The translations under genes were made by a program, and so were the position numbers. The notes beneath the pieces were generated by a model, which was not told the DNA's origin, did no database searches, and saw only the letters and a program-made list of their open reading frames with translations. Below are positions 15,820 to 54,743 of a stretch of 64,000 nucleotides of DNA, in pieces; within the stretch, counting starts at the first letter, position 1; every line of letters starts with the position of its first letter. This DNA is from Massilia sp. PDC64. Its GTDB lineage: Bacteria; Pseudomonadota; Gammaproteobacteria; Burkholderiales; Burkholderiaceae_D. The stretch is taken from NCBI RefSeq assembly GCF_900101265.1, contig NZ_FMZS01000005.1, forward strand, positions 1 through 64,000, in the 5' to 3' direction.

Positions 15820-15846
15820 ATAAACAGAAATGCGAAAAGTGTCAAA
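15820..15846. promoter_or_regulatory. Operator copy A (ATAAACA-N13-TGTCAAA)
   Basis: Inverted repeat with ACA at 15824-15826, 13 bases, and TGT at 15840-15842, between the divergent acyl-CoA synthetase and TetR starts. It is one of ten copies with the same 13-base spacer in this window. Confidence 0.7.
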
Positions 15847-15899
15847 GAAAATGGTTTCGATCTGTCGCCTGTGCGCTTTTCGCACCGGTGGCCTTGCGC

Positions 15900-15905
15900 T
15901 ACAAT
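15900..15905 (+). promoter_or_regulatory. Possible -10 box TACAAT for the TetR gene
   Basis: TACAAT lies 32 bases upstream of the TetR ATG; no convincing -35 is seen (TTTTCG at 15877-15882 is poor). Weak prediction. Confidence 0.35.
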
Positions 15906-15936
15906 CGCGATTCGAAAAACGTTTGCGAAGAAATCG

Positions 15937-16788
15937 ATGACCGCTCCAGCCAAAGCAGCGAAACAGACGGCGGCGCCCAAGCCGAAAGCGGCCGCCAAGA
16001 CCGTGACCAGCGCCAGGGCGGTAGCCAGGCGCGCCGCGCCCGCGGCCGATCCGGCGTCCGACAAGCCGGTCAAGCGGGTAGCCAGGCCGGCAGCCAAGAG
16101 CAGCGCCAGGCCTCCGGCCGCGCAGGCCGATGCGCCGGCAGCGAGGCCGTCCGCCAGGCCCGCTGCCAAGACGGCCGCCAAGGTGGGGGCGAAAGCCGCG
16201 CCGAAGGTCAAGCTGAACAAGCGTTCGAGCGAGACCATCGCCAAGATCCTGGCGGTCACCGAGGAGATCATCCTGCGCTCGGGGGCGGAGCGCATTTCTA
16301 TCCTCGACGTGTGCGACGAAGTCGGTATTTCGCGCGGCACCTTCTATCGCTATTTCTCGTCGCAGGACGACTTGCTGGACGCCTTTTCGCGCCACAAGCG
16401 CGACCAGTTCCATACCACCCTGCAGAAAACTGCGGCTTCGACCGACCCGGACGAGCGCTTCCAGGCGCTGATCGAATTCATCGACGACTATCTCGAGAAC
16501 AGCCGCGCGCGGCGTCTGCTGCTGGTGGCGCCGGACTATGCGACGCGCTGGCTGCAGCGTATCTTCGCCGACTCGGTGCACCGCTTCCAGGACATCCTGG
16601 GAATCGTGTTCGACGCGTGGGAAGAGCGGCACGGCATCGTGATCGACCGGGAGCTCGTGTGCGAGCTGATGGTGCGCTACATCATGAGCGACGTGCTGGT
16701 GCCGGCCGGCCCTGACCGGCGCAACCTGATGCGCCGCATCGAGCGCTTCGTCCTCATGCTGCTCTCGGGACGGGTGGCGCGCCGCTAG
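15937..16788 (+). CDS. TetR-family regulator with a long Ala/Lys/Pro-rich N-terminal tail
   Basis: A 283-residue protein. Residues 1-93 are low-complexity Ala/Lys/Pro/Arg (repeats such as KAAAK, RPAAK, AAKVGAKAAPK), resembling the basic tail of histone H1/AlgP-type proteins. A normal TetR body follows: RSSETIAKILAVTEEIILRSG, then helix-turn-helix RISILDVCDEVGISRGTFYRYFSSQ at about 119-143, then a ligand-binding domain. The body is clearly paralogous to the TetR at 54082-54714, which lacks the tail. The ATG at 15937 is the first in-frame start after the divergent promoter; the open frame extends upstream to 14077 only through the antisense of the synthetase. It is a candidate binder of the ten-copy operator. 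Confidence 0.88.
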   Translation: MTAPAKAAKQTAAPKPKAAAKTVTSARAVARRAAPAADPASDKPVKRVARPAAKSSARPPAAQADAPAARPSARPAAKTAAKVGAKAAPKVKLNKRSSETIAKILAVTEEIILRSGAERISILDVCDEVGISRGTFYRYFSSQDDLLDAFSRHKRDQFHTTLQKTAASTDPDERFQALIEFIDDYLENSRARRLLLVAPDYATRWLQRIFADSVHRFQDILGIVFDAWEERHGIVIDRELVCELMVRYIMSDVLVPAGPDRRNLMRRIERFVLMLLSGRVARR

Positions 16789-16794
16789 CCATGC

Positions 16795-16811
16795 TTTGAC
16801 CCGCAGTCAAA
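16795..16811. promoter_or_regulatory. TTTGAC-N5-GTCAAA inverted repeat
   Basis: Perfect 6-bp arms around CCGCA, 110 bases upstream of the FAD oxidoreductase start. The same TTGAC-N5-GTCAA repeat occurs at 19260-19276 in front of the TetR gene at 18501-19217, so it is probably that repressor's operator. Confidence 0.6.
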
Positions 16812-16920
16812 CCGTTGCGCTGTCGCACGGCGGCGCCGCCGTGTTCCAATCGCCCCGGACGGGCATGTCCCGGACGGGATACCGATAACGACACGATCCG
16901 CGCGAGCGGGAGGAGACAGC

Positions 16921-18504
16921 ATGACGGGAACGAAGCAGTACGACGCGGCGATCGTCGGGGGCGGGCACAACGGCCTGGCGGCCGCCTGCTACCTGGCGCA
17001 AGCCGGCAGGAAGGTGGTGGTCATCGAGGCGCGCGACAAGGTCGGCGGCATGGCCTCCAGCGGCTACCTGATCCCGGAGGCCCCGCGCCACCTGGTCCAT
17101 CCGTGCGCGCTCGACCTGATGTCGCTGCGCGTGCATCCCATGATGCCGCGCGAGCTGCAGCTCGAGCGCCACGGGTTTCGCCAGGTCGACATGGACCCCG
17201 GCTACGTTTACCTCCACCCCGACGGCAGTTCGCTGGTGTTCGGCCGCAGCGCCGCGCAGACGGCGGCCGAGATCCGGCGTTTCTCGGCACGCGACGCCGA
17301 CCAGTTCCTGGTGCTGATGAAGCTCGTCGATGCGTTCATCGACATCGCGATCCCGATGATGCGCGTCGATCCGGCGCGGCGCAACCTCGGCGCCAAGTGG
17401 CAGTCGCTGCGCTCCCTGCTGAAGCACCGCAAGCTGAAACCCGAACTGATGGCGCTGATCGGCAGCCCGGCCTACACGTCGATCGTGGAACGCTTCGAAC
17501 ACCCGGTGACGCAGTCGGCCCTGTGCTGCCTGTTGGGCGCGGCCGGTCCGATCGCCGCCGAGACGACCGGCATCTACTTTGCGCTGCTGGGTTTCATCCA
17601 CCGCTTCGGCCTGGGCCGTCCGGTCGGCGGCATGCAGACGTTGTCGGATGCGCTCGCAGCACGGCTGCGCGAGCTGGGCGGCGACATCCTGCTGTCGGCG
17701 CCGGCCGCCGAGATCGTCGCGCGCGGCGGCCGGGCCGGCGGCGTGCGCCTGGCGGACGGCAGGCTGGTGCAGGCGAGCGCGGTGGTCGCGTCGATCCATC
17801 CGAAAATGGCGCTCGAGATGGTCACGCCCGGCGCGCTCGACCGCCGTACGCTGACCCGGGTCGCGCTGGCGCCCGCCAATGCCCATGGCGCGTCGCCGCT
17901 GAAGGTGGACGTCGCCTTGTCGCGCCAGGTCGCCTATGCGCGCCACGAGGCGCTGCGTCCCGACGGCCTCAGCCTGCGCAAGAGCGTGCTGCTGATCGGT
18001 ACCGCCGAGGCGGTGCTGGACAACTTCCGCTGCGCCGCGCGCGGCGAGGTGTCCGCGCTGCCCTACCTGTGGATCACCGCGCCGTCCGCCGTCGATCCCG
18101 GCCAGGCGCCACCCGGCCAGGACGTCGTCTACCTGTACCCGGTGGCGATGCCGGTCGAGCCGCGCGAGGGCTGGGATGCGATCCGCGACCGGGTCGGGCA
18201 GCAGGCGATCGACCACGCGGCCGCCTACATGGACGGATTGAAGGAGGGCGAGATCGGCCGCCGCATCGAGGCCGCCCCCGACCTCGCGGCGCGGCTGAAC
18301 GTGCATCGCGGCTGCGTGGTGCACATCGATACGAATCCGGCGCGCAGCGCGCTGATGCGCCCGGCGGCGGGACTCGGGGGCGATACGCTGCCGGTCGCCG
18401 GCCTGTTCCTCGGCGGCGCGGGCGTGCACCCGGGCGGCGGCATCAACGGCCTGCCGGGGCGGATCGCGGCGCGCCGCGTCGAGCGCTTCCTGGGCCGGCG
18501 CTAG
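16921..18504 (+). CDS. FAD-dependent oxidoreductase, phytoene-desaturase/CrtI-like
   Basis: A 527-residue flavoprotein. It has an N-terminal dinucleotide-binding motif (AAIVGGGHNGLAAACYLAQAG, residues 8-28), followed by VVVIEARDKVGGMASS, and a C-terminal GLFLGGAGVHPGGGINGLPGR. These mark the phytoene dehydrogenase-like/amine-oxidase superfamily, whose members desaturate or oxidise hydrophobic substrates. The ATG is preceded by GGAGGAGACAGC. It converges with the TetR gene at 18501, overlapping by 4 bases. Its actual substrate is unknown; an oxidation or desaturation step of the island's compound is an inference. Confidence 0.85.
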   Translation: MTGTKQYDAAIVGGGHNGLAAACYLAQAGRKVVVIEARDKVGGMASSGYLIPEAPRHLVHPCALDLMSLRVHPMMPRELQLERHGFRQVDMDPGYVYLHPDGSSLVFGRSAAQTAAEIRRFSARDADQFLVLMKLVDAFIDIAIPMMRVDPARRNLGAKWQSLRSLLKHRKLKPELMALIGSPAYTSIVERFEHPVTQSALCCLLGAAGPIAAETTGIYFALLGFIHRFGLGRPVGGMQTLSDALAARLRELGGDILLSAPAAEIVARGGRAGGVRLADGRLVQASAVVASIHPKMALEMVTPGALDRRTLTRVALAPANAHGASPLKVDVALSRQVAYARHEALRPDGLSLRKSVLLIGTAEAVLDNFRCAARGEVSALPYLWITAPSAVDPGQAPPGQDVVYLYPVAMPVEPREGWDAIRDRVGQQAIDHAAAYMDGLKEGEIGRRIEAAPDLAARLNVHRGCVVHIDTNPARSALMRPAAGLGGDTLPVAGLFLGGAGVHPGGGINGLPGRIAARRVERFLGRR

Positions 18505-19217
18505 CGCCCGGCGCGCGTCAGCGGATCGAGCGTACCGCGCTCGCGCTCGACCGCCGCCAGCACGAAGGCGACCGCGAAACGGCGCCAGGTCTCGGCATCC
18601 GCCCGGTCGGCCACGTCGAGCGCGGCCAGCGTCGCCACCGTGTAGCGGTTGACATAGGCGCTGGTCGTCGCCAGCGCCGCCATCGCCAGCAGCAGGTCGG
18701 CGTCGACGTCGGAGCGGAAATCACCGCTCGCCACCCCGCGCGCCAGCGTCGCGCGCATCTTCTCGTTCAATTGCGGCGCCATGCCCGTGAAGCTGTTGCG
18801 CGGCGTGGTATGGCTCTCGTGGTAGCGGATGCCTTCCTGCGCCAGCGCGCGCAATTCGCCGTCGTGGTAAGGCCGCAGCATGTTGTCGAGCAGGGCGCGC
18901 AGAGCGTCGCGCGGGGGCAGGTGGTCCAGGTCCTGTTCCAGCAGCGTGGCCATGGCCTGCGCCGACGACTCGTCCAGCACGCAGCCGAACAGCTCTTCCT
19001 TGCTGCGGAAATAGTGGTACACCAGCTGCTTGGTCACGCCCGCGGCCTGGGCGATGTCGTCCACGCGCGCATCCGCCAGCCCGCGCGCGGCGAACTCGCG
19101 GCGCGCGGCGCCGGTGATGCGCCGGAGCGTGTCGCGCTTGTTGGGCGGCGCCTTCGCCGCCGCGCTGCCGGCGGCGCAGGCGGGGAGGTCGTTGCGGGTG
19201 TCCGGCAGGTCGGCCAT
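18501..19217 (-). CDS. TetR-family regulator
   Basis: A 238-residue protein with the TetR N-terminal domain: KRDTLRRITGAARREFAARG, then DARVDDIAQAAGVTKQLVYHYFRSKEELF as helix-turn-helix (about residues 50-78), then a helical ligand domain. Its recognition helix (TKQLVYHYFRSKE) differs from the SRGTFYRYFSSQ of the two other TetR proteins, so a different operator is expected. TTGAC-N5-GTCAA lies 43 bases upstream of its ATG and again before the convergent FAD oxidoreductase, consistent with autoregulation and control of that gene. Ligand unknown. Confidence 0.9.
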   Translation of the reverse strand: MADLPDTRNDLPACAAGSAAAKAPPNKRDTLRRITGAARREFAARGLADARVDDIAQAAGVTKQLVYHYFRSKEELFGCVLDESSAQAMATLLEQDLDHLPPRDALRALLDNMLRPYHDGELRALAQEGIRYHESHTTPRNSFTGMAPQLNEKMRATLARGVASGDFRSDVDADLLLAMAALATTSAYVNRYTVATLAALDVADRADAETWRRFAVAFVLAAVERERGTLDPLTRAGR

Positions 19218-19259
19218 GGTCGCGGAATCGGTGGAAACAGCCCATGTTATCGCATGCCG

Positions 19260-19276
19260 CTTGACTCGGCGTCAAA
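19260..19276. promoter_or_regulatory. CTTGAC-N5-GTCAAA inverted repeat
   Basis: Perfect TTGAC/GTCAA arms around TCGGC in the divergent region between TetR (18501-19217) and the first P450. Second copy of the repeat at 16795-16811. Confidence 0.6.
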
Positions 19277-19314
19277 TAAAGTCGATGGCGACGGCCGCCG
19301 CGGCCCTCTAAGAT

Positions 19315-19341
19315 GTGCACACCATTCGATAACATGTTCAT
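19315..19341. promoter_or_regulatory. Operator copy J (GTGCACA-N13-TGTTCAT)
   Basis: ACA at 19319-19321, 13 bases, TGT at 19335-19337; centre about 50 bases upstream of the first P450 ATG. The right arm runs into TCATAT, a possible -10. Confidence 0.7.
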
Positions 19342-19377
19342 ATCCGCCGGGCGCGGCCATGGACGCGAGGAGACATC

Positions 19378-20646: not shown

Positions 20647-20651
20647 ACGCC

Positions 20652-21698
20652 ATGCAGACATACAAGACCGTGCCCGAACGCGCCGACTTCGATTACCAAT
20701 GCCTGGTGGGGCCGCAGAAGGTGACGGGCGCCGGCCTGGCCGACCTGCGCGACCACTTCGGCCTGAAGCTGACCAAGCATATGCCCTTCGGCTGCGTGCG
20801 CGACGGCGAGGGCGCCATTTACGCGATGGTGCGCGCGCTCAACGCGCCGGGCAGCAGCCCGAATCCGACCAAGTTCATCTACCAGTCGACGCGCAGCGGC
20901 GACGGCATGCACGTGCGCATCGACCAGGCGCGCAGCGCCGCGCAGGCGCCGACCATGTTCCCGCGGCGCTGGCTGGACGGCGACACCGCCGGCTGGTCCA
21001 GCCATGCGGACGAGGCGGGCAATCCGTGGCGGATCACGGCGTCCGGCACGCACTTCAGCTGGCGCGAAGAAGGGCTGTTCGCACTGGAAGGGCGCCTGCT
21101 CGGCCAAGGCATGCAGTGGTATCTGCCGGGACGCGACTGGGGCACGTTCTACGTCTCGCAGCTGTACGACGTCGCCGGCATGTGCGAAGGCCGGGCCGTG
21201 AAAGGCTTCATCACGCTGGACCAGGCCTGGATGGCGGAGGGCGGCGCCATCCATTTCAAGAAGGACCTGGTGGTCAACCACGGCATGCACGTGATCTGGT
21301 GGACCTTCGCCACGGTCTATACGGACGGCAGCTGGGACCTCGGCTCCTTCATGGTCGGCCATGGCAGGCTCGGTTACGCCATCTTCCAGAACGAGAAAGG
21401 CGAGATCCGCTGCACCACGGACGTCGAGGGCGAGGTCGTGCACAAGCCGGGCAGCTATTTCGTCGAGCGCGCGCACATCGTCGTCGGCGGCGTCGAAACG
21501 TGGGAATTCGTGCCCGATCCCAAGGGCGAAATGATCGATTTCGTCGGCGGCTTCCCGATCACGGCCCAGCAGGAAGGCCGCTGGCGGCGCCGCGGCGATA
21601 CGCGCACGCCGGACCGCTCGCTCGGCTGGGGCGAGACGGACCGGCGCAACGGCAGCGCGCGCGACGTGCGCCCGGCCGGCGCGGGAGAACCGGCATGA
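20652..21698 (+). CDS. Hypothetical protein, possibly lipocalin-like (CrtC/AttH-type)
   Basis: A 348-residue soluble protein without a signal peptide. It is rich in aromatic beta-strand segments (FKKDLVVNHGMHVIWWTFATVYTDGSWDLGSFMVGHGRLGYAIF). I do not recognise a catalytic motif. The strand pattern recalls the CrtC/AttH lipocalin-like superfamily (hydratases and binding proteins for hydrophobic compounds), but this is a guess. The ATG is 5 bases after the P450 stop and the gene ends in an ATGA overlap with the next, so it is translated with the P450. That suggests a role in handling the P450's substrate or product. Confidence 0.7.
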   Translation: MQTYKTVPERADFDYQCLVGPQKVTGAGLADLRDHFGLKLTKHMPFGCVRDGEGAIYAMVRALNAPGSSPNPTKFIYQSTRSGDGMHVRIDQARSAAQAPTMFPRRWLDGDTAGWSSHADEAGNPWRITASGTHFSWREEGLFALEGRLLGQGMQWYLPGRDWGTFYVSQLYDVAGMCEGRAVKGFITLDQAWMAEGGAIHFKKDLVVNHGMHVIWWTFATVYTDGSWDLGSFMVGHGRLGYAIFQNEKGEIRCTTDVEGEVVHKPGSYFVERAHIVVGGVETWEFVPDPKGEMIDFVGGFPITAQQEGRWRRRGDTRTPDRSLGWGETDRRNGSARDVRPAGAGEPA

Positions 21699-22051
21699 GC
21701 ATGAACACCGACGCCATCCGCCACTTCCTGCACACTCAGGTCGCCTGCTGGAATGCCGGCGACCGGGACGGCTTCCTCGCCGCGTACCGCGCGGCCGCGG
21801 CCGGCGGCCTGGCCATCGAGTACGTCGGCCGCCCGGCCACGGACGGCTGGCCGGTGCTGGATGCGATGTGGGAACGGCAGAACGCCGCCATCGAGATCGA
21901 GGAGGTGACGCTCATCGTCAACGGCGCCGAGGCGGCCTGCCACAACCGCAACAGGTCGCGACGCGACGGCACGGTTATCGACACCATCGAGCTGTATCGC
22001 TTCGAGCCGGACGGCAGGCTGCTGGTGCGCTACTTCATCCGGCACGGGTGA
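21695..22051 (+). CDS. NTF2-like/SnoaL-like protein
   Basis: A 118-residue alpha+beta-cone protein. It begins DAIRHFLHTQVACWNAGDRDGFLAAY, the usual first helix of SnoaL/NTF2-like domains, and ends TIELYRFEPDGRLLVRYFIRHG, the usual last strands. Such proteins act as small isomerases, cyclases or dehydratases, or simply bind ligands. The start overlaps the previous stop (ATGA), so it belongs to the P450 operon. Specific function unknown. Confidence 0.75.
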   Translation: MSMNTDAIRHFLHTQVACWNAGDRDGFLAAYRAAAAGGLAIEYVGRPATDGWPVLDAMWERQNAAIEIEEVTLIVNGAEAACHNRNRSRRDGTVIDTIELYRFEPDGRLLVRYFIRHG

Positions 22052-22091
22052 ATGCACAAGAACGTCGACAATTTCCGGAAACGCGTTTATA

Positions 22092-22118
22092 TTGAACACA
22101 AATAAAAAATTTGTTCAA
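22092..22118. promoter_or_regulatory. Operator copy H (TTGAACA-N13-TGTTCAA), best palindrome
   Basis: Perfect 7-bp arms, 22092-22098 and 22112-22118. TTGAAC (22092-22097) and TCAATA (22115-22120) are 17 bases apart and could be the -35 and -10 of the following operon, so a bound protein would occlude RNA polymerase. Confidence 0.75.
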
Positions 22119-22140
22119 TAAATCCGGGAGGGAGACAAGC

Positions 22141-22182
22141 ATGGCCGGACTTCCGTACGACGTGGCAGGGGCGGCGCCATGA
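22141..22182 (+). CDS. Possible 13-codon leader ORF
   Basis: ATG at 22141 directly follows a strong ribosome site (GGGAGGGAGACAAGC) and encodes MAGLPYDVAGAAP. Its TGA (22180-22182) overlaps the ATG of the next gene (22179). The AhpD-like gene has no ribosome site of its own this good, so translation may start here and reinitiate. It may instead be the relic of a deleted gene's start. Codon evidence is too short to decide. Confidence 0.4.
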   Translation: MAGLPYDVAGAAP

Positions 22183-30105: not shown

Positions 30106-30132
30106 TAGAGCACTATCTCGAAAAGTGTTCAA
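30106..30132. promoter_or_regulatory. Operator copy G (TAGAGCA-N13-TGTTCAA)
   Basis: Left arm degenerate (GCA instead of ACA at 30110-30112), right arm perfect (TGT at 30126-30128), spacer 13. Centre about 58 bases upstream of the second P450 start. Confidence 0.6.
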
Positions 30133-31468: not shown

Positions 31469-31495
31469 ATGAACAGAATCTAAAAAAGTGTTTAA
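31469..31495. promoter_or_regulatory. Operator copy D (ATGAACA-N13-TGTTTAA)
   Basis: ACA 31473-31475, 13 bases, TGT 31489-31491. Its right arm overlaps the proposed -35 of the amidohydrolase promoter. Confidence 0.72.
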
Positions 31496-37119: not shown

Positions 37120-38031
37120 TCACCCTCCGCTGGTCCTGATCAGGAACTGGCGGAACGCCTCGCCCGGCTGCTCCAGCGGCCGGTCGGGGTGCCAGATCAG
37201 TCCCACCTCCATGTCCGGCACGACGTCCAGGATCGGCCGCGTCTCGATCTTCTTGCCCTCGAGCGACCAGTGGCGGTACACCATGTCCGACAGGATGCTC
37301 ACGCCGAAGCCGTGGGCGATCAGGCCGCGCAGCGCTTCCATCGAACTGGTGCGGAAGGCGATGTGCGGCTGCACGCCGCGCGCGGCCCAGTAGCGCCGGG
37401 TCGACGCCTCGCTCTCGTCCACCGTCACCTGGATGTACGGATAGGCGGCGATGTCGGACAGCGCGGCATTGTCCCTGCCGAGCAGCGGATGGTCGGCGGC
37501 CATCCACAACTGGCGCCGCGAACGCACCAGCACGTGGTGGCCGAACCGTTCCCGTTCCGGCATGTTCGACAGGATCACCACGCCGACGTCCAGCCGTCCC
37601 GCCGCGACCTCCTCCTCGATGGCCTCGCGGTGCATGTCCGCCAGGTCGATCTCGACATCGGGGTACTGGGCGCGGAAGCGCGCCAGCAGCGGCGGCAGGA
37701 AATAGCCGAGCAGCGTGTACGAGGCCCCGACCCGCAGCGTGCCGGCCAGCTGCAGCGCCGGCAGGTGCTGCTCGCGCAGGCAGTCGGCCAGCGAGTCGAG
37801 GATGCCGCGCGTGCGGTGATAGAAGCGCTGGCCGTCGGCCGTGAGGGCGACTCCGTGCGGCCTGCGCTCGAACAGGCGCACGCCCAGCTCCTGCTCCAGC
37901 ATCAGCACGGCGTTGGTGATCGCCGACTGCGACACGTGGGCGCGCGTGGCGGCCATCGAGAAGCGGCCGGTCTCGGCGGCGGCGACGAAGTAGCGCAGCT
38001 GGCGCAACGTGACGTTATCGGTGGTGGACAT
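37120..38031 (-). CDS. LysR-family transcriptional regulator
   Basis: A 303-residue LysR protein: N-terminal helix-turn-helix LRQLRYFVAAAETGRFSMAATRAHVSQSAITNAVLMLEQELGVRLFERR, followed by a periplasmic-binding-protein-like effector domain (LRVGASYTLLGYFLPPLL...). It is divergent from the IOR-etfBA operon with 97 bases between starts, the usual layout for a LysR regulating its neighbour. Operator copy I lies in that same gap. Effector unknown. Confidence 0.92.
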   Translation of the reverse strand: MSTTDNVTLRQLRYFVAAAETGRFSMAATRAHVSQSAITNAVLMLEQELGVRLFERRPHGVALTADGQRFYHRTRGILDSLADCLREQHLPALQLAGTLRVGASYTLLGYFLPPLLARFRAQYPDVEIDLADMHREAIEEEVAAGRLDVGVVILSNMPERERFGHHVLVRSRRQLWMAADHPLLGRDNAALSDIAAYPYIQVTVDESEASTRRYWAARGVQPHIAFRTSSMEALRGLIAHGFGVSILSDMVYRHWSLEGKKIETRPILDVVPDMEVGLIWHPDRPLEQPGEAFRQFLIRTSGG

Positions 38032-38076: not shown

Positions 38077-38103
38077 TTGAACATTTTTGTAGACTCTGTT
38101 CAT
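38077..38103. promoter_or_regulatory. Operator copy I (TTGAACA-N13-TGTTCAT)
   Basis: ACA 38081-38083, 13 bases, TGT 38097-38099; centre 39 bases upstream of the IOR start. TTGAAC (38077-38082) and TCATAA (38100-38105) are 17 bases apart and could be the promoter itself. Confidence 0.72.
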
Positions 38104-38128: not shown

Positions 38129-41100
38129 ATGAATTCGCCGCTAACGCCTGCCGCCGGGGCAGCGCTGCGCGCTGTCGCGCTCGACGACAAATACACGGTC
38201 GACACGGGACGCATCTATCTCAGCGGCGTGCAGATGCTGGCGCGCCTGCCGATGCTGCAGAAGGAGCGCGACCGCGACGCGGGCCTGAACACCGGCGGCT
38301 ACGTGTCCGGCTACCGCGGCTCGCCGCTGGGGGGACTGGACCTCGCGCTGTGGAAAGCGAAAAAACACCTCGACAGCCACGACGTCGTGTTCCAGCCCGG
38401 CCTGAACGAGGACCTGGCCGCCACCGCGGTGTGGGGCACGCAGCAGGTCAACCTGTACGACACTGCCACCCGCGACGGTGTCTTCGGCATGTGGTATGGC
38501 AAGGGACCCGGCGTGGACCGCTCCGCCGACGTGCTCAAGCACGCGAACGCCGCCGGGACGTCGGCCAAGGGCGGCGTGCTGATGCTGGTGGGCGACGACC
38601 ATGCGGCGAAGTCGTCCACCGTGGCGCACCAGTCGGAGCACCTGCTGGTCGCATGCGGGATTCCCGTCCTGTATCCGTCCACCGTGCAGGAATTCCACGA
38701 CTACGGCCTGCACGGCTGGGCGATGAGCCGCCATGCTGGGCTGTGGGTGGCGATGAAGTGCGTGACCGACGTGGTGGAGTCGTCGGCATCGGTGGAAATG
38801 GACCCGGAGCGCCTGCGCATCGTGGTGCCGGACACGCCGACGCCGGCGGGCGGGCTGGGCATCCGCTGGCCCGACGGCCCCCTGGAGCAGGAAGCGCGCC
38901 TGGTCGAGCACAAATGGTATGCCGCCCTCGACTATGTCCGCGCCAACAAGCTGAACCAGGTGGTGCTCGATGCGCCGCAGGCGCGCTTCGGCATCGTCGC
39001 GGCCGGCAAGGCGTATCTCGATCTGCGCCAGGCGCTGGTCGACCTGGGGCTGGACGAGGCGGCCTGCCGCGCCATCGGCATCCGCATCCTGAAGGTCGGC
39101 TGCGTCTGGCCGCTGCACGCGGACGACGTGCGCGAATTCGCCGCCGGCCTGGACGAGATCCTCGTGGTCGAGGAAAAGCGCCAGGTGCTCGAGTATGCGA
39201 TCAAGGAGCAGTTGTACAACTGGCCCAGCGACCGGCGCCCGCGCGTGTACGGCAAGTTCGACGAGCGCGGCATGGAAGGCGGGGAGTGGGCATCGCCGCG
39301 CGGACAGTGGCTGCTGCCGGCGCGTTACGAACTGTCGCCCGCGCTGATCGCCAAGGCGGTCGCGCGCCGCCTCGGCGAAGCCGGCCTGCCGCCGCAGGTG
39401 CGCGCGGCGATCGACGAGCGCCTCGCCGTGATCGCGGCCAAGGAGCGCGAGGCCGCCCGGCCGCGCGTCACGGCAGAGCGCAAGCCCTGGTTCTGCTCGG
39501 GCTGTCCGCACAATACCTCGACGAGGGTGCCGGCGGGGTCGCGCGCGCTGGCCGGCATCGGTTGCCACTACATGGCGTTGTGGATGGACCGTAACACCGA
39601 GACCGTGGCCCAGATGGGCGGCGAGGGCGTGAGCTGGCTCGGCCAGATGCATTTCACACGCGACAAGCACGTGTTCGTGAACCTCGGCGACGGGACCTAT
39701 TTCCATTCCGGCCTGCTGGCGATCCGCGCCGCGATCGCGGCGAAGGCCACGCTGACCTACAAGATCCTCTACAACGACGCGGTCGCGATGACCGGCGGCC
39801 AGCCGGTGGACGGGACGCTGACCGTGCCGCAGATCGCCCAGCAGGTGGTCAGCGAAGGCGCGGTGCGGGTCGTCGTGGTGAGCGACGAGCCGGAAAAATA
39901 CGCGCAGCGCGCCGGCCTGCCGGACGCCGTCACCGTGCACCACCGCGACCAGTTCGACGCCCTGCAGCTCGAGTTGCGCGAGCTGGCCGGCGTATCGGTC
40001 ATCATCTACGACCAGACCTGCGCCACCGAGAAGCGGCGCCGGCGCAAGCGCGGCGAGTTTCCCGACCCGGCACGGCGCGCCTTCATCAATCCGGCGGTCT
40101 GCGAAGGCTGCGGCGATTGCTCCGTCGCCTCGAACTGCCTGTCGGTCGAGCCGCTCGAGACCCCGCTCGGGACCAAGCGCAGGATCAACCAGAGTTCCTG
40201 CAACAAGGATTTCTCGTGCGTGAACGGATTCTGTCCGAGCTTCGTCACCGCCGAGGGAGCCCAGCTGCGCCGTCCCGGGTCCGGCGTGCCGCCCGCCGTC
40301 CAGGCGCCGCCGGTGCCGGAGCCGGTGCAGGCACCGCTCGACGGCGTCTGCGGCATCGTCGTGCCCGGCGTTGGCGGGACGGGCGTCGTGACGATCGGAG
40401 CGCTGCTCGGGATGGCGGCGCACCTGGAGAACAAGGGCGTCAAGGTGCTCGACATCACCGGCCTCGCGCAAAAGGGCGGCGCGGTGCTCAGCCACGTGCA
40501 GATCGCGGCCCATCCGGACAGCATCCACGCGACGCGCGTGCCGACGGGCGAGGCGGATGTGCTGATCGGCTGCGACGCGATGGTGGCCGCATCCGGCGAC
40601 GCGTTGTCGCGCGTGCGGCGCGGCCGCACCCGCGCCATCGTCAACAGCGCCTCGGTGCCGGCCGCCGCCTTCCTGTCGAATCCGGACTGGAAATTCCCCG
40701 GCGCCGACACGGAAGCCGACCTGCGTGCCAGCATCGGCGACGCGTGCGAGTTCGTCGATGCGAACGCGCTGGCGCTGCGCCTGTTCGGCGACACGATCTA
40801 CGCCAACCCGCTGCTGCTCGGCTATGCATGGCAGAAGGGCTGGGTGCCACTGGGACGCGCGGCGCTGCTGCGGGCAATCGAGTTGAACGGCGTGTCGGTC
40901 GAGAAGAACCAGCAGGCCTTCGAGGCCGGCCGGCACGCGGCGCACGACCCGGCCGCGCTGCCGTCGTCTGTCGCCGCGCCGCGCGCCACGCCGGTACAGA
41001 TGCCCGTCACGCTCGACCGCCTGATCGACCAGCGTGTCGCGCTGCTGACGGCTTACCAGAATCCGGCGTACGCGGCGCGCTACCGGTCCGCGGTCGAGAA

Positions 41101-41674
41101 GCTGCGCGCCGTGGAGTCGAAAGTCGATCCCGGCGGCAGGCTGGCGCTGACGGAGGCGGTGGCGCGCAACCTGGCCAAGCTGATGGCGTACAAGGACGAG
41201 TACGAAGTCGCGCGTCTGCACACCGCCCCCGAGTTCCTGGCCGAGTTGCGCAACCAGTTCGAGGGCGAGCCCGGCAAGGATTACCAGGTGTATTTCCACC
41301 TGGCGCCGCCGCTTACCGCCGCGCGCGACGCCGCCGGCCGGCTGGTCAAGCGCCGCTACGGTCCCTGGATGATGCGGGCGTTTTCCGTGCTGGCCCGGTT
41401 CAAGGGGTTGCGGGGCACCTTGCTCGATCCCTTCGGCAAGACCGCCGAACGGCGCCGCGAGCGCCGGCTGGTCGAGAATTACTTTAACCTCGTGCAGCTG
41501 TTCTGCGAAACCCTGACCCCGGAACGCCTCGGCGCCGCCCTGGAGCTGGCGCGGGTGCCCGAAACGATACGCGGCTATGGCCACGTGAAGGAAAAGAACA
41601 TGGACGCGGCTTCCGAACGGCGCGTCCAGCTGATGGCGCTCTACCGCGCCATCACTCACCATAACAAGACCTGA
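38129..41674 (+). CDS. Fused indolepyruvate:ferredoxin oxidoreductase-family protein
   Basis: A 1181-residue thiamine-diphosphate/iron-sulfur enzyme that oxidatively decarboxylates 2-oxo acids (classically aryl pyruvates) to acyl-CoA with ferredoxin as acceptor. In order: a pyrimidine-binding domain ([19 protein letters not shown]), a TPP-binding domain ([45 protein letters not shown]), a cysteine-rich segment ([27 protein letters not shown]), and a gamma-type domain ([17 protein letters not shown]). This is the fused IorA-IorB form of aerobic proteobacteria. It precedes etfB by 10 bases. In this island it may act on a keto-acid intermediate; the substrate is an inference. Confidence 0.9.
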
Positions 41675-41684
41675 AGGAGATAGC

Positions 41685-42434
41685 ATGAAGATACTGGTAC
41701 CCGTCAAACGCGTGGTCGACTACAACGTCAAGGTCCGCGTCAAGTCCGACGGCAGCGGCGTCGATATCGCCAACGTCAAGATGTCGATGAACCCGTTCGA
41801 CGAGATCGCGGTGGAAGAAGCCACGCGCCTGAAGGAAGCCGGCAAGGTCACCGAGATCGTGGCCGTGACCTGCGGCGTGGCCCAGGCCCAGGAAACCCTG
41901 CGTACCGCGATGGCGATCGGCGCCGACCGCGGCGTGCTGGTCGAGACCGGTGCCGAGATCGAGCCGCTGGGCGTGGCCAAGGTGCTGAAGGCGCTGGCCG
42001 TCGAAGAGCAGCCGCAACTGATCATCCTGGGCAAGCAGGCGATCGACGACGATTCGAACCAGACCGGCCAGATGCTGGCTGCGCTGCTGGGCTGGCCGCA
42101 AGCGACGTTCGCGTCGAAGGTCGTGCTGGAAGACGGCAAGGTCACCGTGACCCGCGAAGTGGACGGCGGCCTGGAAACCGTGGCCTTGACCCTGCCGGCC
42201 ATCGTCACCACCGACCTGCGCCTGAACGAGCCGCGCTACGTCACGCTGCCGAACATCATGAAGGCCAAGAAAAAGCCGCTGACGACCGTCAAGCCGGAAG
42301 ATCTGGGCGTCGACGTCACGCCGCGCCTGAAGACCGTCAAGGTCGCCGAGCCGGCCAAGCGTTCCGCCGGCGTCAAAGTGCCCGACGTGGCGACCCTGGT
42401 GGCGAAGCTGCGCACCGAAGCCAAAGTCATCTAA
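41685..42434 (+). CDS. etfB: Electron transfer flavoprotein, beta subunit
   Basis: A 249-residue ETF beta subunit. It begins [23 protein letters not shown] and has [19 protein letters not shown], the AMP-binding region [18 protein letters not shown], and the ETF-beta signature [33 protein letters not shown]. With EtfA it collects electrons from the acyl-CoA dehydrogenases and delivers them to ETF-QO (1212-2888). It lies 10 bases after the IOR gene with AAGGAGATAGC, so it shares the operator-I promoter. Confidence 0.96.
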
Positions 42435-42455
42435 TCAAGGTTAAGGAATACATCC

Positions 42456-43388
42456 ATGGTCGCACTCGTCATTGCTGAACACGACAACGCCTCGCTGAAG
42501 GCCGTCACCCTGAACACCGTCACCGCGGCCGCGCAATGCGGCGGCGATGTCCACATCCTCGTCGCCGGCAGCAACTGCGGCGCCGTCGCCGAAGCTGCCG
42601 CCAAGGTCGCGGGCGTCACGAAAGTGCTGGTCGCCGACGCGCCGCAATTCGCCGACGGCCTCGCCGAGAACGTCGCCGAGCAGGTGCTGGCCGTTGCCGG
42701 TAACTACTCGCACATCCTGGCTCCGGCCAGCGCCCACGGCAAGAACGTGCTGCCGCGCGTCGCCGCCAAGCTGGACGTCGCCCAGATCTCGGAAATCACC
42801 AAGGTCGATGCGCCCGACACGTTCGAACGTCCGATCTACGCCGGCAACGCCATCGCCACCGTCCAGTCGACGGACAGCGTGAAAGTCATCACCGTGCGCG
42901 GCACCGGCTTCGATGCCGCAGCAAGCGAAGGTGGCTCGGCCGCCGTCGAAACCGTCGCCGCCGTGGCGGACTCGGGCAAGTCGAGCTTCGTGGGCCGCGA
43001 AGTGGCCAAGTCGGACCGTCCGGAACTGACCGGCGCCAAGGTCGTCGTGTCCGGCGGCCGCGGCATGGGCTCGGGCGACAACTTCAAGATCCTGGAACCG
43101 CTGGCCGACAAGCTGGGCGCCGCCATGGGCGCATCGCGCGCCGCCGTCGATGCGGGCTACGTGCCGAACGACTGGCAGGTGGGCCAGACCGGCAAGATCG
43201 TCGCGCCGCAGCTGTACATCGCCGTCGGTATCTCGGGCGCGATCCAGCACCTGGCCGGCATGAAGGATTCGAAGACCATCGTCGCCATCAACAAGGATCC
43301 GGAAGCGCCGATCTTCTCGGTGGCCGACTACGCGCTGGTGGGGGATTTGTTCGAGGTGGTGCCGCAACTGGTCGAGGCACTGGGCTGA
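42456..43388 (+). CDS. etfA: Electron transfer flavoprotein, alpha subunit
   Basis: A 310-residue ETF alpha subunit. The C-terminal FAD domain has [40 protein letters not shown] and [54 protein letters not shown], the family signature. It starts 21 bases after etfB and is followed by hairpins before the convergent dioxygenase gene. Normal length and intact. Confidence 0.97.
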
Positions 43389-45442: not shown

Positions 45443-45469
45443 ATGCACACAAATCGAAAAACTGTCACG
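45443..45469. promoter_or_regulatory. Operator copy F (ATGCACA-N13-TGTCACG)
   Basis: ACA 45447-45449, 13 bases, TGT 45463-45465, between the IclR stop and the ferredoxin start; centre 62 bases upstream of the ferredoxin ATG. Confidence 0.62.
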
Positions 45470-45481: not shown

Positions 45482-46270
45482 CTAGAACAGGATGTTGCCG
45501 ACCTTCGTCGCGGCTTTGCGCAACGCCTGGCCGAGTTTCTCGGTCTCGGCCTCCGTATGCTGGCCGCGGAAGGTCACCGCGGACATCGCATACGCCGTCG
45601 TACCAGCACGATCGTTGACGGGCGCCGCGATCGCGAGGATGCCCGCGGAGAAATAGCCGTCATCGACCGCCCAGCCCTTGGCGCTCGCGTCCGCGACCTG
45701 GCGGCGGTAATCGTCGAAGCCGAGCGGACGTGCCCAGCGCACCTTGTCGAACGCGGCGCGCAGGCGCTCCTCGTCCAGGCCGAGCTTGCCTGCGAACAGG
45801 CGCCCGCTGGCACCCATCAGCACCGGCAGGCGCTGGCCGATCGCCATGTCGATGCGCAGGTCGCCGGGGCTCGTTTCCGAACTGACCAGCACGATGCGGT
45901 CGTTGCCCATGCGGCGCCACAGGGTGACGGTGACGTGGTGCGCCGCCGCGAATTCCTGCATCAGCGGACGCACGACGTCGAGGCGCTGGCCCTGCGTGAC
46001 CAGGTGCTCGACGAGCTTCGCCAGCCCCAGTCCGGTCGTATAGGTTTTCGACAGCGGGTCGAAGTCGAGCATCTCCTCGGCGACCAGGGTGCGCAGCGTG
46101 TTGAAGCAGGTGCTCGGATTGATCGCCAGCTCGCGTGCGATATCGGCCGCCCGCTCGGGCGAACCGGACGCCGTCAGGAAGCGCAGGATGCGGATCGCGT
46201 TGACGACCGGCTTGACGGTAACGCCGGTCGAGGAATCGGACTGGTCGTCGCTGGTGGTGGTGCCTGCCAT
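45482..46270 (-). CDS. IclR-family transcriptional regulator
   Basis: A 262-residue IclR protein. An N-terminal winged helix (NAIRILRFLTASGSPERAADIARELAINPSTCFNTLRTLVAEEML, about residues 24-68) is followed by a GAF-like effector domain (MGASGRLFAGKLGL, GWAVDDGYFSAGILAIAAPV). An ATTCT-N6-AGAAT palindrome lies 59 bases upstream of the ATG and recurs before the DUF1302 gene at 60039, suggesting its operator. The family commonly controls aromatic catabolism. Effector unknown. Confidence 0.92.
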   Translation of the reverse strand: MAGTTTSDDQSDSSTGVTVKPVVNAIRILRFLTASGSPERAADIARELAINPSTCFNTLRTLVAEEMLDFDPLSKTYTTGLGLAKLVEHLVTQGQRLDVVRPLMQEFAAAHHVTVTLWRRMGNDRIVLVSSETSPGDLRIDMAIGQRLPVLMGASGRLFAGKLGLDEERLRAAFDKVRWARPLGFDDYRRQVADASAKGWAVDDGYFSAGILAIAAPVNDRAGTTAYAMSAVTFRGQHTEAETEKLGQALRKAATKVGNILF

Positions 46271-46344: not shown

Positions 46345-46376
46345 CGTCGCGGAGCAAGACCGGGGCGCGGAACGCA

Positions 46377-47971: not shown

Positions 47972-48026
47972 GTCGAGGCCCTTGGCTAGCGTTAGCGGAT
48001 TATTCCCGGGAAGATTCTACAACTTT

Positions 48027-48053
48027 GTAGACATAAATTGAAAATATGTTTAA
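48027..48053. promoter_or_regulatory. Operator copy C (GTAGACA-N13-TGTTTAA)
   Basis: ACA 48031-48033, 13 bases, TGT 48047-48049, midway between divergent starts (47971 and 48106), so it can serve both operons. TTTAAA (48049-48054) with TACTTT (48071-48076) may be the rightward promoter. Confidence 0.7.
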
Positions 48054-48105
48054 AGTTTTCGCGAAAGCGCTACTTTTAACCAGAAACACAAAGAAAGGTC
48101 ACACG

Positions 48106-48801: not shown

Positions 48802-48853
48802 CATCCCGCGCCGTCGGCGCGCGGGCAACCATAACAAGAACGGGAGACACAAC

Positions 48854-49840: not shown

Positions 49841-49919
49841 GCCGCGCCACGCAACGCTTTCCGGCGCCACCGGCCGCAGAGTCCGGGACGCCGCTTCCAC
49901 GACCTTACAGGAGACAACC

Positions 49920-51179: not shown

Positions 51180-51207
51180 GATTTTTTATTTATCGAGGAA
51201 CCGAAAC

Positions 51208-52440
51208 ATGTCGCTCAATTCCGTAGTGATCGCCGGCGCCGGGCATGCCGGCGTGCAGGTGGCGTTGTCCCTGCGCCAGGAAGGCTTTGCCGGCCGCATT
51301 TCCCTGGTCAACGACGAACCCTGGCTGCCGTACCAGCGCCCGCCGTTGTCGAAGGCCTACCTGCTGGGCAAGATCGACGCCATGGCCATGCAATTCCGCC
51401 CGGCGGCGTTCTATGCCGAGCAGCGCATCGACCTCGTGGCGGACCGCGGCGCGGCGATCGACCGCCAGAACCGCAGGCTGCTGCTGGCCTCCGGCGCGGC
51501 GCTCGACTATGACCACCTGGTGCTGGCCACCGGCGCCCATAACCGGCCCCTGAACGTGCCCGGCGCCGCGCTGGCGGGCGTGTACGGCGTCAAGACCCGT
51601 GCCGATGCCGAGGCGCTGGCGCCGCTGCTCGCCACCGCCCGGCGCGTGGTCGTCATCGGTGCCGGTTTCATCGGCCTGGAATTCGCGGCGGTCGCGGCGG
51701 CGGCCGGCGCCGCGGTCGAGGTGCTGGAGCTGGGCGAGCGTCCGATGGCGCGCGCGGTGTCGCCGCAGATGTCCGGGCTGTTCCGCGCGGCGCACGCGTC
51801 GTGGGGCGTGAATTTCCGCTTCCGCACCGCGGTGTCGGAAATCGAAGGCGACAACGGCAAGGCCGTGGCGGTGCGGGCGGCGGACGGCGAGAGGCTCCCG
51901 GCCGACCTGGTCGTGTACGGGATCGGCGTCATCCCCAACGTCGCGCTTGCGCTCGAGGCGGGCCTGTCGATCGACAACGGCATCCGCGTGGACGCCAACC
52001 TGCTGACGTCCGACCCGCACATTTCCGCGCTGGGCGACGTGGCCTCGTTCCCCTGCCTGCAGAACGGCGAACGGCTGACGCGCCTGGAATCGGTGCAGAA
52101 CGCCGTCGACCAGGGCCGGCTGATTGCCGCGCGCCTGACCGGCAAGCCGGCGCCGTACACGGCGCTACCGTGGTTCTGGACCGACCAGGGCAACCTCAAG
52201 CTGCAGATCGCGGGACTGTCGACCGGCGCCGACAACCACGTCGTGCTGGGCGACCCGGCGACGCAGCAGGTGTCGGTGCTGTGCTTCCGCGGCGAACAGC
52301 TGCTGGCGGTGGAGTCGTGCGGACGGGTCGGCGACCACATGGCGGCGCGCAAGATCCTTGCCCGTCCGCCGGCGCTGACGCCGGCGGTGGCGGCGGCGCC
52401 CGGCTTCGATCTCAAGGCGTGGGAAGCGGCGAATCGCTGA
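51208..52440 (+). CDS. NAD(P)H-dependent ferredoxin reductase (FAD)
   Basis: A 410-residue flavoprotein of the putidaredoxin/rhodocoxin reductase type. It has an FAD motif VVIAGAGHAGVQVALSLRQEG (residues 6-26), the PYQRPPLSKAYLLG segment, an NAD-binding motif VVVIGAGFIGLEFAAVAAAAG near 148-168, and the second FAD motif ALGDVASFP near 275. It would pass electrons from NAD(P)H to the small ferredoxin at 45179 and so to the two P450s. Last gene of the SDR-FAH-MFS operon; converges with the DUF2889 gene, overlapping by 29 bases. Confidence 0.93.
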   Translation: MSLNSVVIAGAGHAGVQVALSLRQEGFAGRISLVNDEPWLPYQRPPLSKAYLLGKIDAMAMQFRPAAFYAEQRIDLVADRGAAIDRQNRRLLLASGAALDYDHLVLATGAHNRPLNVPGAALAGVYGVKTRADAEALAPLLATARRVVVIGAGFIGLEFAAVAAAAGAAVEVLELGERPMARAVSPQMSGLFRAAHASWGVNFRFRTAVSEIEGDNGKAVAVRAADGERLPADLVVYGIGVIPNVALALEAGLSIDNGIRVDANLLTSDPHISALGDVASFPCLQNGERLTRLESVQNAVDQGRLIAARLTGKPAPYTALPWFWTDQGNLKLQIAGLSTGADNHVVLGDPATQQVSVLCFRGEQLLAVESCGRVGDHMAARKILARPPALTPAVAAAPGFDLKAWEAANR

Positions 52441-53173
52441 AGTCGCGCAGCCAGGCCTGGTCGTCCAGGCACAGTGCCTCCGGGCGCGCGCTGAAGTCCC
52501 AGGTCGAGCCGACGATCCGGATCGCCTGCGGCGCGCGCGCGGGCTGCTGGGCGTAGCAGCGACCGGTAAGGTGGGCGTGCGGCTCCCGGTCGATGTCCTT
52601 CAGGCGGCCCAGCGAGATCAGGGCGCAGCGGCGCAGCACGAGGGCCGCTTCCGCTTCCTCGGCCGGCAAGGTGCCCAGCGCCCAGCGCGCCATCCCCTTG
52701 CGCATGTCGACGCCGGCATACGGCGCCGGGCCCACGATTGTACTGCCGTCGACCTCCCACTCGAGGAGCAGCGCGCCGTCGCGCCACAGGCGGGCATGCG
52801 AGCGGCCGTCGACGTGGCGCGGCACCTCGATGTCGTAGCGCCGGTAGCGGTCGCCGCGCGCGGCGAGGGCGATCGCCAGTCCGGCGAGGTCGAACATGTG
52901 GGTGCACTGCTGGGTCGCATCGGTGTACAGCGTGACCGAATTGGCAATGCTGTCCAGGCGCATCCCGGCCAGGCGGTTCAGCTCGGGCGCCGCGCCCGGG
53001 CAGGCGCTGAACGGGTGGCGCGGCGTTTCCCCGCGCACCGCGGCCACGACGCCGCCCCGATGCTCGAGCGCGACGCGGAAATGATGAAAGTCGTCCTCGA
53101 GCACGGCGCGCACCTGTCCACCCTGGCCGTCCTGTTGCCCGGCCAGCTCGATGCGTCTGCGAAAGCGTTGCAT
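52412..53173 (-). CDS. DUF2889 protein
   Basis: A 253-residue cytosolic protein. The N-terminal MQRFRRRIELAGQ, VRAVLEDDFHHFRVALEHRGGVVAAV and FSACPGAAPELNRLAGM are the hallmark blocks of DUF2889, a family with no established function that recurs in aromatic/steroid/terpenoid catabolic clusters. I see no catalytic motif. The start at 53173 is chosen for the family-typical N-terminus. It is divergent from the SDR at 53251, with operator E between them. Confidence 0.82.
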   Translation of the reverse strand: MQRFRRRIELAGQQDGQGGQVRAVLEDDFHHFRVALEHRGGVVAAVRGETPRHPFSACPGAAPELNRLAGMRLDSIANSVTLYTDATQQCTHMFDLAGLAIALAARGDRYRRYDIEVPRHVDGRSHARLWRDGALLLEWEVDGSTIVGPAPYAGVDMRKGMARWALGTLPAEEAEAALVLRRCALISLGRLKDIDREPHAHLTGRCYAQQPARAPQAIRIVGSTWDFSARPEALCLDDQAWLRDFSDSPLPTP

Positions 53174-53207
53174 GGAGTATTTCCTGGTATGAGTTGTTGG
53201 AGTGAAT

Positions 53208-53234
53208 GTGTACAATAACAGAAAATCTGTTTAA
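53208..53234. promoter_or_regulatory. Operator copy E (GTGTACA-N13-TGTTTAA)
   Basis: ACA 53212-53214, 13 bases, TGT 53228-53230, in the 77-base gap between divergent DUF2889 and SDR starts. TACAAT (53211-53216) inside it could be a -10 for the SDR. Confidence 0.68.
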
Positions 53235-53250
53235 AAGTGAGGAGGGTGAC

Positions 53251-54051
53251 ATGGATCTTCTGAAGGACAAGGTGGCGCTCGTGACCGGCGCCGGCGGCGG
53301 CATCGGCCGTGGCGTGGCGCGCCGTTTCGCGCGCGAGGGCGCCGCGGTGGTGATCGCGGAGATCGACCGCGCGAGCGGCGCCCAGGTGGCGCGCGAGGTC
53401 GAGGAACTCGGCGGCAGGGCGCTGTTCGTGCATACCGATGTCCTGCAGAAAGCGTCGGTGGAGGCGGCGGTGGCGGCGGCGGTCGAGCGGTTCGGCGGGC
53501 TCGACATCCTCGTGAACAACGCGTTCGTGCCGACGCCGAACGTCTTGTTGGAGGACAAGACCGACGAGATGCTGGAACAGACGCTGACGTCGACCGTGAA
53601 GGCCTGCTGGTGGGCGATGCGCGCCGCGCTGCCGCACATGCGCGCCCGGGGCGGCGGCAAGGTCGTGAATTTCTATTCGATCGACGTCGACATCGGCGCC
53701 TGGCTGCATGCCGACTACAACACCGCCAAGGCCGGCATTATCGGCCTGACGCGCAGCGCGGCGGCCGAGTGGGGCCGCTTCAACATCACCGTGAACGCGA
53801 TCGCGCCGACGGCGATGGGCGCCACGTTCCACAAGCTGGCCGCCGAGAACCCCGGATTCGCGGAGCGTTCGGCCGCCATGCGCCCGCTGGGGCGCTGCGG
53901 CGACCCCGAGGACGACATCGGCCCGGTGGCAGTGTTCCTGGCGAGCGACATGTCGCGCTACGTCACCGGCGAATCCTTCCACGTGGACGGCGGACTGCAC
54001 CTGCCCGGCTACAACTCGCGGCCGGCCCACGTGCCGGTCCGGGAATACTGA
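53251..54051 (+). CDS. Short-chain dehydrogenase/reductase
   Basis: A 266-residue classical SDR: ALVTGAGGGIGRGVARRFAREG, DILVNNAFVPTP, FYSID for the serine, and catalytic YNTAK; it ends GESFHVDGGLHLPGYNSRP plus a short tail. The ATG at 53251 follows GAGGAGGGTGAC; an earlier in-frame ATG at 53206 lies in the operator. It is followed after 30 bases by the second TetR gene, so regulator and enzyme are likely cotranscribed under operator E. Confidence 0.9.
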   Translation: MDLLKDKVALVTGAGGGIGRGVARRFAREGAAVVIAEIDRASGAQVAREVEELGGRALFVHTDVLQKASVEAAVAAAVERFGGLDILVNNAFVPTPNVLLEDKTDEMLEQTLTSTVKACWWAMRAALPHMRARGGGKVVNFYSIDVDIGAWLHADYNTAKAGIIGLTRSAAAEWGRFNITVNAIAPTAMGATFHKLAAENPGFAERSAAMRPLGRCGDPEDDIGPVAVFLASDMSRYVTGESFHVDGGLHLPGYNSRPAHVPVREY

Positions 54052-54081
54052 TCGATCTTTTTTTGACTGGACGCCGCAACG

Positions 54082-54714
54082 ATGTACACCCCACCCGCCG
54101 CAAGGGCCGAGCAACCCGCGACCGACAAGCGCAACCGGCGCGCCGAGGCGACCATCGAGGCCATCCTCGCGGCAACCGAGGCGATCGTCCTGCGCGAAGG
54201 GTCGGACCGCATTTCCGTCCTCGACGTGTGCGCGCTCGCGCAGGTGTCGCGCGGCACGTTCTACCGTTATTTCTCGTCGCAGGACGAGCTGCTGGACGCG
54301 TTCGCGCGCCATAAGCGGTCGTCGTTCCAGAAGGCCATGGCGGACGCGGTGGGGCCGCACGTGGATCCCGACGCGCGCTTCCATGCGCTGGTGCGCTACC
54401 TGGACAACTACGCGGCGCACGGCCAGGCCCGCCTGCTGCTGCGCGCCGCGCCGGAATACACGCTGCGCCTGTTCGGGCGCCTGTTCCACGAATCGCTGGT
54501 GCGCATCGAGGAACTGATGCGCGTCGTGTTCGATTCCTGGGACCGGCGCCTGGGCATCCGGACCGACCGCGAACTGATCTGCGAGCTCCTGATCCGCTGC
54601 GTGCTGAGCGAACTCGTGGTGCCGAACAGGCAGCCGGAAGACGGCATCCGCCGCATCGTCGCGTTCCTGTATTCGCTCGTCGAATGCGAGGCGCGCGCAA
54701 CGCTGGAAAAATAA
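54082..54714 (+). CDS. TetR-family regulator, tail-less paralogue
   Basis: A 210-residue TetR protein. The helix-turn-helix (RISVLDVCALAQVSRGTFYRYFSSQDELLDAF, about 43-75) is nearly identical to that of the TetR at 15937, including the recognition helix SRGTFYRYFSSQ. The ligand domains also align (ELICELLIR versus ELVCELMVR). It lacks the 93-residue basic tail. Operators E and B flank its transcription unit. The two proteins probably bind the same sites, perhaps with different ligands or as heterodimers. Confidence 0.92.
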   Translation: MYTPPAARAEQPATDKRNRRAEATIEAILAATEAIVLREGSDRISVLDVCALAQVSRGTFYRYFSSQDELLDAFARHKRSSFQKAMADAVGPHVDPDARFHALVRYLDNYAAHGQARLLLRAAPEYTLRLFGRLFHESLVRIEELMRVVFDSWDRRLGIRTDRELICELLIRCVLSELVVPNRQPEDGIRRIVAFLYSLVECEARATLEK

Positions 54715-54716
54715 AA

Positions 54717-54743
54717 CTAAACACATTTGCCATTTCTGTCTAT
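54717..54743. promoter_or_regulatory. Operator copy B (CTAAACA-N13-TGTCTAT)
   Basis: ACA 54721-54723, 13 bases, TGT 54737-54739, just after the TetR stop and about 176 bases upstream of the amidohydrolase. The rest of the 190-base leader shows no gene I can support. Confidence 0.65.

Follow-up and report, generated by a model that had tools for sequence, protein, structure and literature searches.

The window analyzed here, a 64,000-nucleotide stretch of Massilia sp. PDC64 DNA, comprises bases 1-64000 of the 487,630-base contig C25 in a genome of 7.5 Mb, and carries a catabolic gene island with ten copies of a 27-bp operator of the form ACA-N13-TGT (Table 1; sites are named by their first base). 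The initial annotation of this DNA had described these ten sites as intergenic elements with an invariant 13-base spacer and a single copy carrying GCA instead of ACA, and each of these points was borne out: every site begins where it had been placed, the spacer is constant throughout, the GCA copy is 30106, and the gene calls put all ten in intergenic DNA. Five sites (15820, 19315, 38077, 48027, 53208), and not three as first counted, lie in divergent gaps. The further claim that a site heads essentially each operon of the island has exceptions: a scan of the window with a matrix built from the ten sites returned nothing above 9 bits before the TonB/MFS genes (13610 to 9977), the DUF1302/DUF1329 genes (60039) or the liu-type operon, for which the absence of a site had already been noted. 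The liu-type operon itself (1212-9463) encodes methylcrotonyl-CoA carboxylase, HMG-CoA lyase and acyl-CoA dehydrogenase (CoA, coenzyme A; HMG, 3-hydroxy-3-methylglutaryl) and includes a MarR gene.

The chance level for the ten-site matrix was set by shuffling the intergenic DNA of the window 200 times with its dinucleotides preserved. No other place in the window exceeded 13.6 bits, which is the leave-one-out score of the weakest site, 19315, and the next score, 11.9 bits, belongs to a listed site read on the opposite strand; the shuffled DNA gave a mean of 0.035 matches of at least 13.6 bits, with a top single score of 23.2. The literal pattern TTGAACA-N13-TGTTCAA, allowing up to three mismatches, was found six times against 0.36 expected, and when half-site spacings of 4-25 were compared, spacing 13 yielded eight pairs, all intergenic, while the runner-up, spacing 24, yielded five, none of them intergenic. 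Positions C6, A7, A17, A18, T21, G22 and T23 are invariant among the ten aligned sites. The operator is asymmetric and no simple palindrome, as its spacer is not free and its interior is A-rich on one strand; sites 38077 and 54717 are reversed relative to the other eight. The oriented consensus is biased, since the strand chosen for every site was the one that scored better.

The ten-site set proved real but incomplete. An eleventh site of 23.5 bits lies beyond the window at C25:76785-76811, 31 bp before a gene pair (C25:74742-76753) whose products carry the Pfam signatures of Rieske alpha and ring-hydroxylating beta subunits and match ditA1A2 of Pseudomonas abietaniphila, and the regulon thus extends past the window. 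The sites are confined to such genes. In a whole-genome matrix scan of the kind the initial annotation had proposed, the ten-site model (R1) returned 11 matches with an expect value (E) <= 10 in 7.5 Mb, the top ten of which were the ten sites. A pooled model (R2), for which 44 sites were collected and all but one Massilia site used (43 in total), gave 57 matches at E <= 5 in eight genomes, 55 of them in or at most 2.5 kb from dit genes; most of its sites came from the genomes then searched, and the recovery of known sites is by construction, whereas the scarcity of other matches is the actual result. Two of the 55 precede ditA1 copies that were recognized only later, and the two remaining matches score ~12 bits each in stretches devoid of island-gene homologs. 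Of the 11 R2 matches in the Massilia genome, ten are island sites. These model searches score 150 first-look candidates per genome (6 or 7 in the order samples), such that weak sites or relatives may escape; R1 missed C25:76785 and R2 missed 19315. There is strong support for the sites making up a single regulon, but in place of the one regulator first suggested for all operons the sequence favors a pair of paralogous TetR proteins with like DNA specificity.

The gene set of the window is homologous to the dioxygenase-bearing cluster of P. abietaniphila ATCC 700689, which we take to be strain BKME-9, from which the dit genes for the breakdown of abietane resin acids of conifers derive: the two clusters share syntenic blocks, ditA1A2 included, and operator sites are present in both, whereas P. 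abietaniphila has one TetR and the window island two paralogs. Homologs of the ditA1A2 ring-hydroxylating dioxygenase genes and of ditC, ditF and ditR stand in one block. Sections of published accounts describe the dit cluster, including the need for ditA1, and report it in P. frederiksbergensis SI8, which is locus L087 of our set (PMC10710418, PMC4505138, PMC13063091, PMC12628601, PMC3570484). We infer that the substrates of the window cluster are resin acids or a diterpenoid close to them. The island has the look of a horizontal acquisition. A 457-kb plasmid of Massilia putida, typed as mobilizable, carries an almost identical island that has the full set of ten sites (L183, NZ_CP019037.1:115000-164900), and the nearest named relative of the island protein TetR12, at 99% identity, is from Telluria antibiotica. 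Across order samples totaling 399 genomes the TetR was found only in the genome studied here, being absent from four other genomes of the genus and eight of the family, and the IclR was found in four genomes, this one included.

The sites are linked to the TetR family. The island holds three TetR genes, not the two originally reported, the third being TetR14 (Table 1). TetR12 and TetR47 score 39.8 and 37.3 bits against PF00440, for which the cutoff is 24, and so carry a TetR helix-turn-helix (HTH). A structure model of TetR12 (nine helices, mean predicted local distance difference test score (pLDDT) of 83) adopts the all-helical TetR fold, and its nearest folds in the PDB are TetR proteins with E from 3.3e-4, including SaFadR, solved with acyl-CoA, and TtgR; the best solved fold relatives share 14-22% sequence identity with it. 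Between TetR12 and TetR47, 36 of 51 HTH residues are identical, with the helix SRGTFYRYFSSQD unchanged, while behind the HTH only 51 of 131 are. Identical in the recognition helix but diverged in the ligand domain, these two proteins are the best candidate binders. The two TetR proteins alone were then used as query to fetch loci, 80 of 188 relatives being kept, and these were scanned with the window-only matrix: 77 of the 80 have at least one site of at least 16 bits and 70 have at least two, a density of 17.4 sites per 100 kb compared with 0.10 in shuffles. No site of at least 16 bits occurred in 740 kb of control DNA, made up of 20 stretches (400 kb) from four of the same genomes and 17 stretches (340 kb) from the Massilia genome. 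This own-genome control omitted two of 19 background stretches, both picked around earlier matches; one of these, L114, has a single 16.0-bit place (C15:799570), and the other, L120, nothing above 13 bits.

Among 22 genomes, 11 have two TetR copies and 11 have one, the latter including Pseudomonas, Marinobacter, Acidovorax, Simplicispira, Hydrogenophaga and Piscinibacter. In a tree, a TetR47 group comprising the Oxalobacteraceae and second Aromatoleum copies (support 98/92) is separate from the TetR12 group (88/91), and second Zoogloea copies are left unplaced. The operators follow the dit genes into distantly related beta- and gammaproteobacteria and are rare elsewhere. The same promoters carry the site in the Massilia, Aromatoleum, Acidovorax, Marinobacter, Zoogloea and Pseudomonas clusters despite differing gene order, though not at every promoter in each species of these six genera. 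A conjugative plasmid of the alphaproteobacterium Caulobacter sp. FWC26 (L182, NZ_CP033873.1) bears a diverged dit-like cluster with two operator-like sites, one before the amidohydrolase gene and one in the ditA1/ferredoxin gap; a de novo palindrome search of this cluster gave nothing exceeding shuffles. No site above 12 bits was found in a Sphingopyxis plasmid region with an amidohydrolase relative.

The arms of the operator had been suggested to overlap promoter elements, and an analysis of 47 gene-oriented sites lends this support. The best -35/-10 register places the -35 at operator positions 2-7 and the -10 at positions 25-30 across a 17-base spacer, and scores 7.66 of 12 consensus matches compared with a mean of 3.62 (standard deviation 0.93) over all registers; site 15820, for example, reads TTGACA-N17-TATATT. 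The gene-facing reading outscores the reversed one at 23 sites and falls below it at four, the other 20 being ties. The predicted overlap of the operator with the core promoter is thus supported, and a site lying over a -35/-10 pair that faces the gene implies repression. Upstream of SDR46, only 15-18 bp separate the end of the site from the ATG in five of six taxa, which leaves no room for an activator.

We therefore consider it probable, judging from sequence comparisons, that the eleven sites serve as operators for a TetR-type regulon by which the whole dit-type island is shut off, and that TetR12 and TetR47 bind the same operator. The left arm would double as the -35 element, with a -10-like hexamer abutting the right arm across the 17-bp spacer, and a bound TetR repressor would exclude RNA polymerase. 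An inducer, probably a resin acid or its CoA thioester, would release the repressors, and the operons, TetR47's own among them, would then switch on together. The CoA ligase gene divergent from TetR12 makes a CoA thioester a reasonable inducer.

Several observations weigh against this reading. No site reaches 16 bits in three of the 80 loci (L045, L047, L071), the 80 loci are mutually related, and RGTFYRYF, in the recognition helix, was a retrieval pattern, so that its constancy in a 21-row alignment (A4) is no evidence, a flaw from which the likeness of TetR12 to TetR47 is free. The TetR/ligase gap of P. abietaniphila has no site above 13 bits, and the occurrence of a single TetR in 11 of the 22 genomes implies that two copies are not needed everywhere. 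Read backwards, the best promoter register still scores 6.53 of 12, such that the -35/-10 match is largely built into the palindrome, and sites 22092, 30106 and 76785 of the window contig fit it poorly at the -10 or the -35. Lastly, the IclR protein DitR accompanies TetR in 21 of the 22 genomes, and co-occurrence therefore cannot decide which of them is the binder.

Were DitR the binder, the sites would be DitR operators, which we regard as unlikely. DitR is reportedly, according to Martin and Mohn in 2000, an inducer-dependent activator of ditA3, whereas the sites overlie promoters and, before SDR46, end too close to the start codon to resemble an activator site. It is also annotated as a dit regulator in a published account (PMC12628601). 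Yet the draft genome of Zoogloea oleivorans (G011) has TetR12 and two sites with no IclR or AmHyd26 match, and in three cases in which distant IclR relatives (36-42%) occur without TetR no site above 12 bits was found nearby. The Caulobacter cluster is instructive in the same respect, as its IclR HTH keeps 41 of 65 residues, yet only two sites are left, while its TetR HTH is down to 21 of 51. Repression by TetR and activation by DitR could also coexist.

It is less probable still that the binder is the LysR protein, TetR14 or a regulator from outside the island. The LysR and TetR14 genes each border a divergent gap that holds a site, but TetR14 has no match in three of 13 cluster-bearing genomes and only distant 32% matches in two more, and LysR has none in one of the 13; both were dropped as binders for want of constant co-occurrence. 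A regulator from outside would have to be reconciled with the Massilia putida plasmid, where the ten sites travel with the island and the binder should travel too. Equally improbable is that the motif is a shared promoter consensus of sigma-70 or an extracytoplasmic function (ECF) sigma factor and no operator, the best fit of a -35/-10 register with a 17-bp spacer at this place notwithstanding: T21 and G22 are universal among the 47 sites and T23 is found in 44, bases that no -35/-10 consensus calls for, the arms mirror each other, and this reading was dropped on the constancy of TGT, the absence of sites from 740 kb of other promoter-rich DNA and the comparison with the reversed register.

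Under the TetR reading, two TetR dimers may occupy each site, judging from the 27-bp length of the operator and from the conserved A-rich blocks in its interior, which lie ~11 bp away from the arm on the other side. Positions 6/17 and 11/22 form pairs 11 bp apart and would fit two offset dimers, which would explain the conserved interior. Two-dimer TetR operators measure 28 bp for QacR, 32 bp for CgmR, 31 bp for MS6564 and 22 bp for CprB, with recognition helices 37-38 Å apart in QacR and CprB, and the window operator falls inside this 22-32 bp class (PMC4150764). These proteins have low sequence identity to TetR12 and TetR47, for which two dimers per site are a prediction. A more tentative idea, which we hold to be possible but doubtful, is that TetR12 and TetR47 combine one DNA specificity with different ligand pockets on a common operator set, as separate or mixed dimer pairs, such that full induction needs two signals at once. 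If so, the two signals, for example a resin acid and a late CoA intermediate, would act as an AND gate that one-paralog lineages (Pseudomonas, Marinobacter and Comamonadaceae-type genomes) would lack.

TetR-controlled catabolic regulons are already known from KstR and EdcR. KstR and KstR2 are TetR repressors with operators at the operons of a polycyclic-terpenoid degradation cluster, their inducers being CoA thioesters of the pathway, and the dit-type island resembles them in having TetR-type operators at the operons of such a cluster. It differs in TetR subfamily, operator and pathway and in having two sister TetRs on one operator set, and TetR12 and TetR47 score 21.0 and 22.1 bits against the NCBIfam KstR model, for which the cutoff is 280. 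The KstR and KstR2 regulons of cholesterol catabolism in Actinobacteria are named in a source whose account of estradiol degradation in Caenibius tardaugens describes EdcR as a TetR repressor in a catabolic cluster with its operator over the -10 region and at several promoters (PMC8700777). The EdcR operator given there, TnnCnnTACnAnTnGTAnnGnnA, is unlike the window operator, and EdcR has TetR_C_11, for which TetR12 and TetR47 show no match (PMC8700777). An estrogen (edc) regulon was dropped as a reading on these differences in operator and C-terminal domain. In the sections covered, the dit descriptions mention DitR, ydcR and a regulator called simply 'R', and no operator of a TetR protein (PMC10710418, PMC13063091, PMC12628601), and no TetR operator for dit genes was recognized in the literature searched, which was covered in part and without the primary dit papers. 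What is unusual here is the pair of putative sister repressors on one operator set and the way in which the operator has accompanied a mobile pathway into distant proteobacteria. The sites would constitute a defined and transferable regulatory code for a mobile resin-acid pathway, one that predicts pathway operons, uncharacterized ones included; they would also offer a ready promoter/repressor pair for diterpenoid sensing and a natural case for testing how one operator is shared between sister repressors.

Table 1. Operator sites and regulator genes of the island, in window positions
Feature	Position	Strand	Context
Operator	15820..15846	+	before AMP-ligase gene 14152-15783 (-); divergent from TetR12; kept in Massilia, Aromatoleum, Zoogloea
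Operator	19315..19341	+	before P450 gene 19378 (+); divergent from TetR14; weakest of the ten
Operator	22092..22118	+	before operon beginning at 22179
Operator, GCA variant	30106..30132	+	before P450 gene 30177
Operator	31469..31495	+	before amidohydrolase/acyl-CoA dehydrogenase operon 31578; top-scoring site of the genome
Operator	38077..38103	-	between LysR gene (-) and ferredoxin oxidoreductase/ETF operon 38129 (+)
Operator	45443..45469	+	before ferredoxin (ditA3-like)/SDR/ditC operon 45394-43446 (-)
Operator	48027..48053	+	divergent gap between OB-fold/thiolase genes (-) and SDR/FAH operon 48106 (+)
Operator	53208..53234	+	before SDR46-TetR47 operon 53251 (+), whose ATG is 16 bp away; DUF2889 gene on the divergent side
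Operator	54717..54743	-	before amidohydrolase/FAH/HCDH/thiolase operon 54906 (+)
TetR12, candidate repressor	16183..16788	+	Pfam TetR_N
TetR47, paralogous candidate repressor, recognition helix as TetR12	54082..54714	+	Pfam TetR_N
IclR-type regulator, DitR homolog, rival binder	45482..46270	-	Pfam IclR_C, HTH_IclR
TetR14, other TetR subfamily, unlikely binder	18501..19217	-	TetR_C_29 C-terminal domain
LysR-type regulator, unlikely binder	37120..38031	-	shares divergent gap with operator 38077

Some genes of the island and its relatives merit mention in their own right. Two conserved genes of 348 and 118 amino acids, lying between the P450 gene and the next operon (20652-22051), have no Pfam or NCBIfam match and recur in every mapped cluster except that of Caulobacter. 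Inside the regulon, at 38129-43388, stand an indolepyruvate-ferredoxin-oxidoreductase-like gene and an ETF pair; a similar enzyme occurs in estrogen degradation clusters, a likeness that suggests a shared late step. In Acidovorax (L195, G013) and Zoogloea (L207, G010), a ditA1A2 pair has an additional amidohydrolase gene next to it and an operator of its own; there are two ditA1A2 pairs within 8 kb in Acidovorax, and in Zoogloea the pairs are on two contigs.

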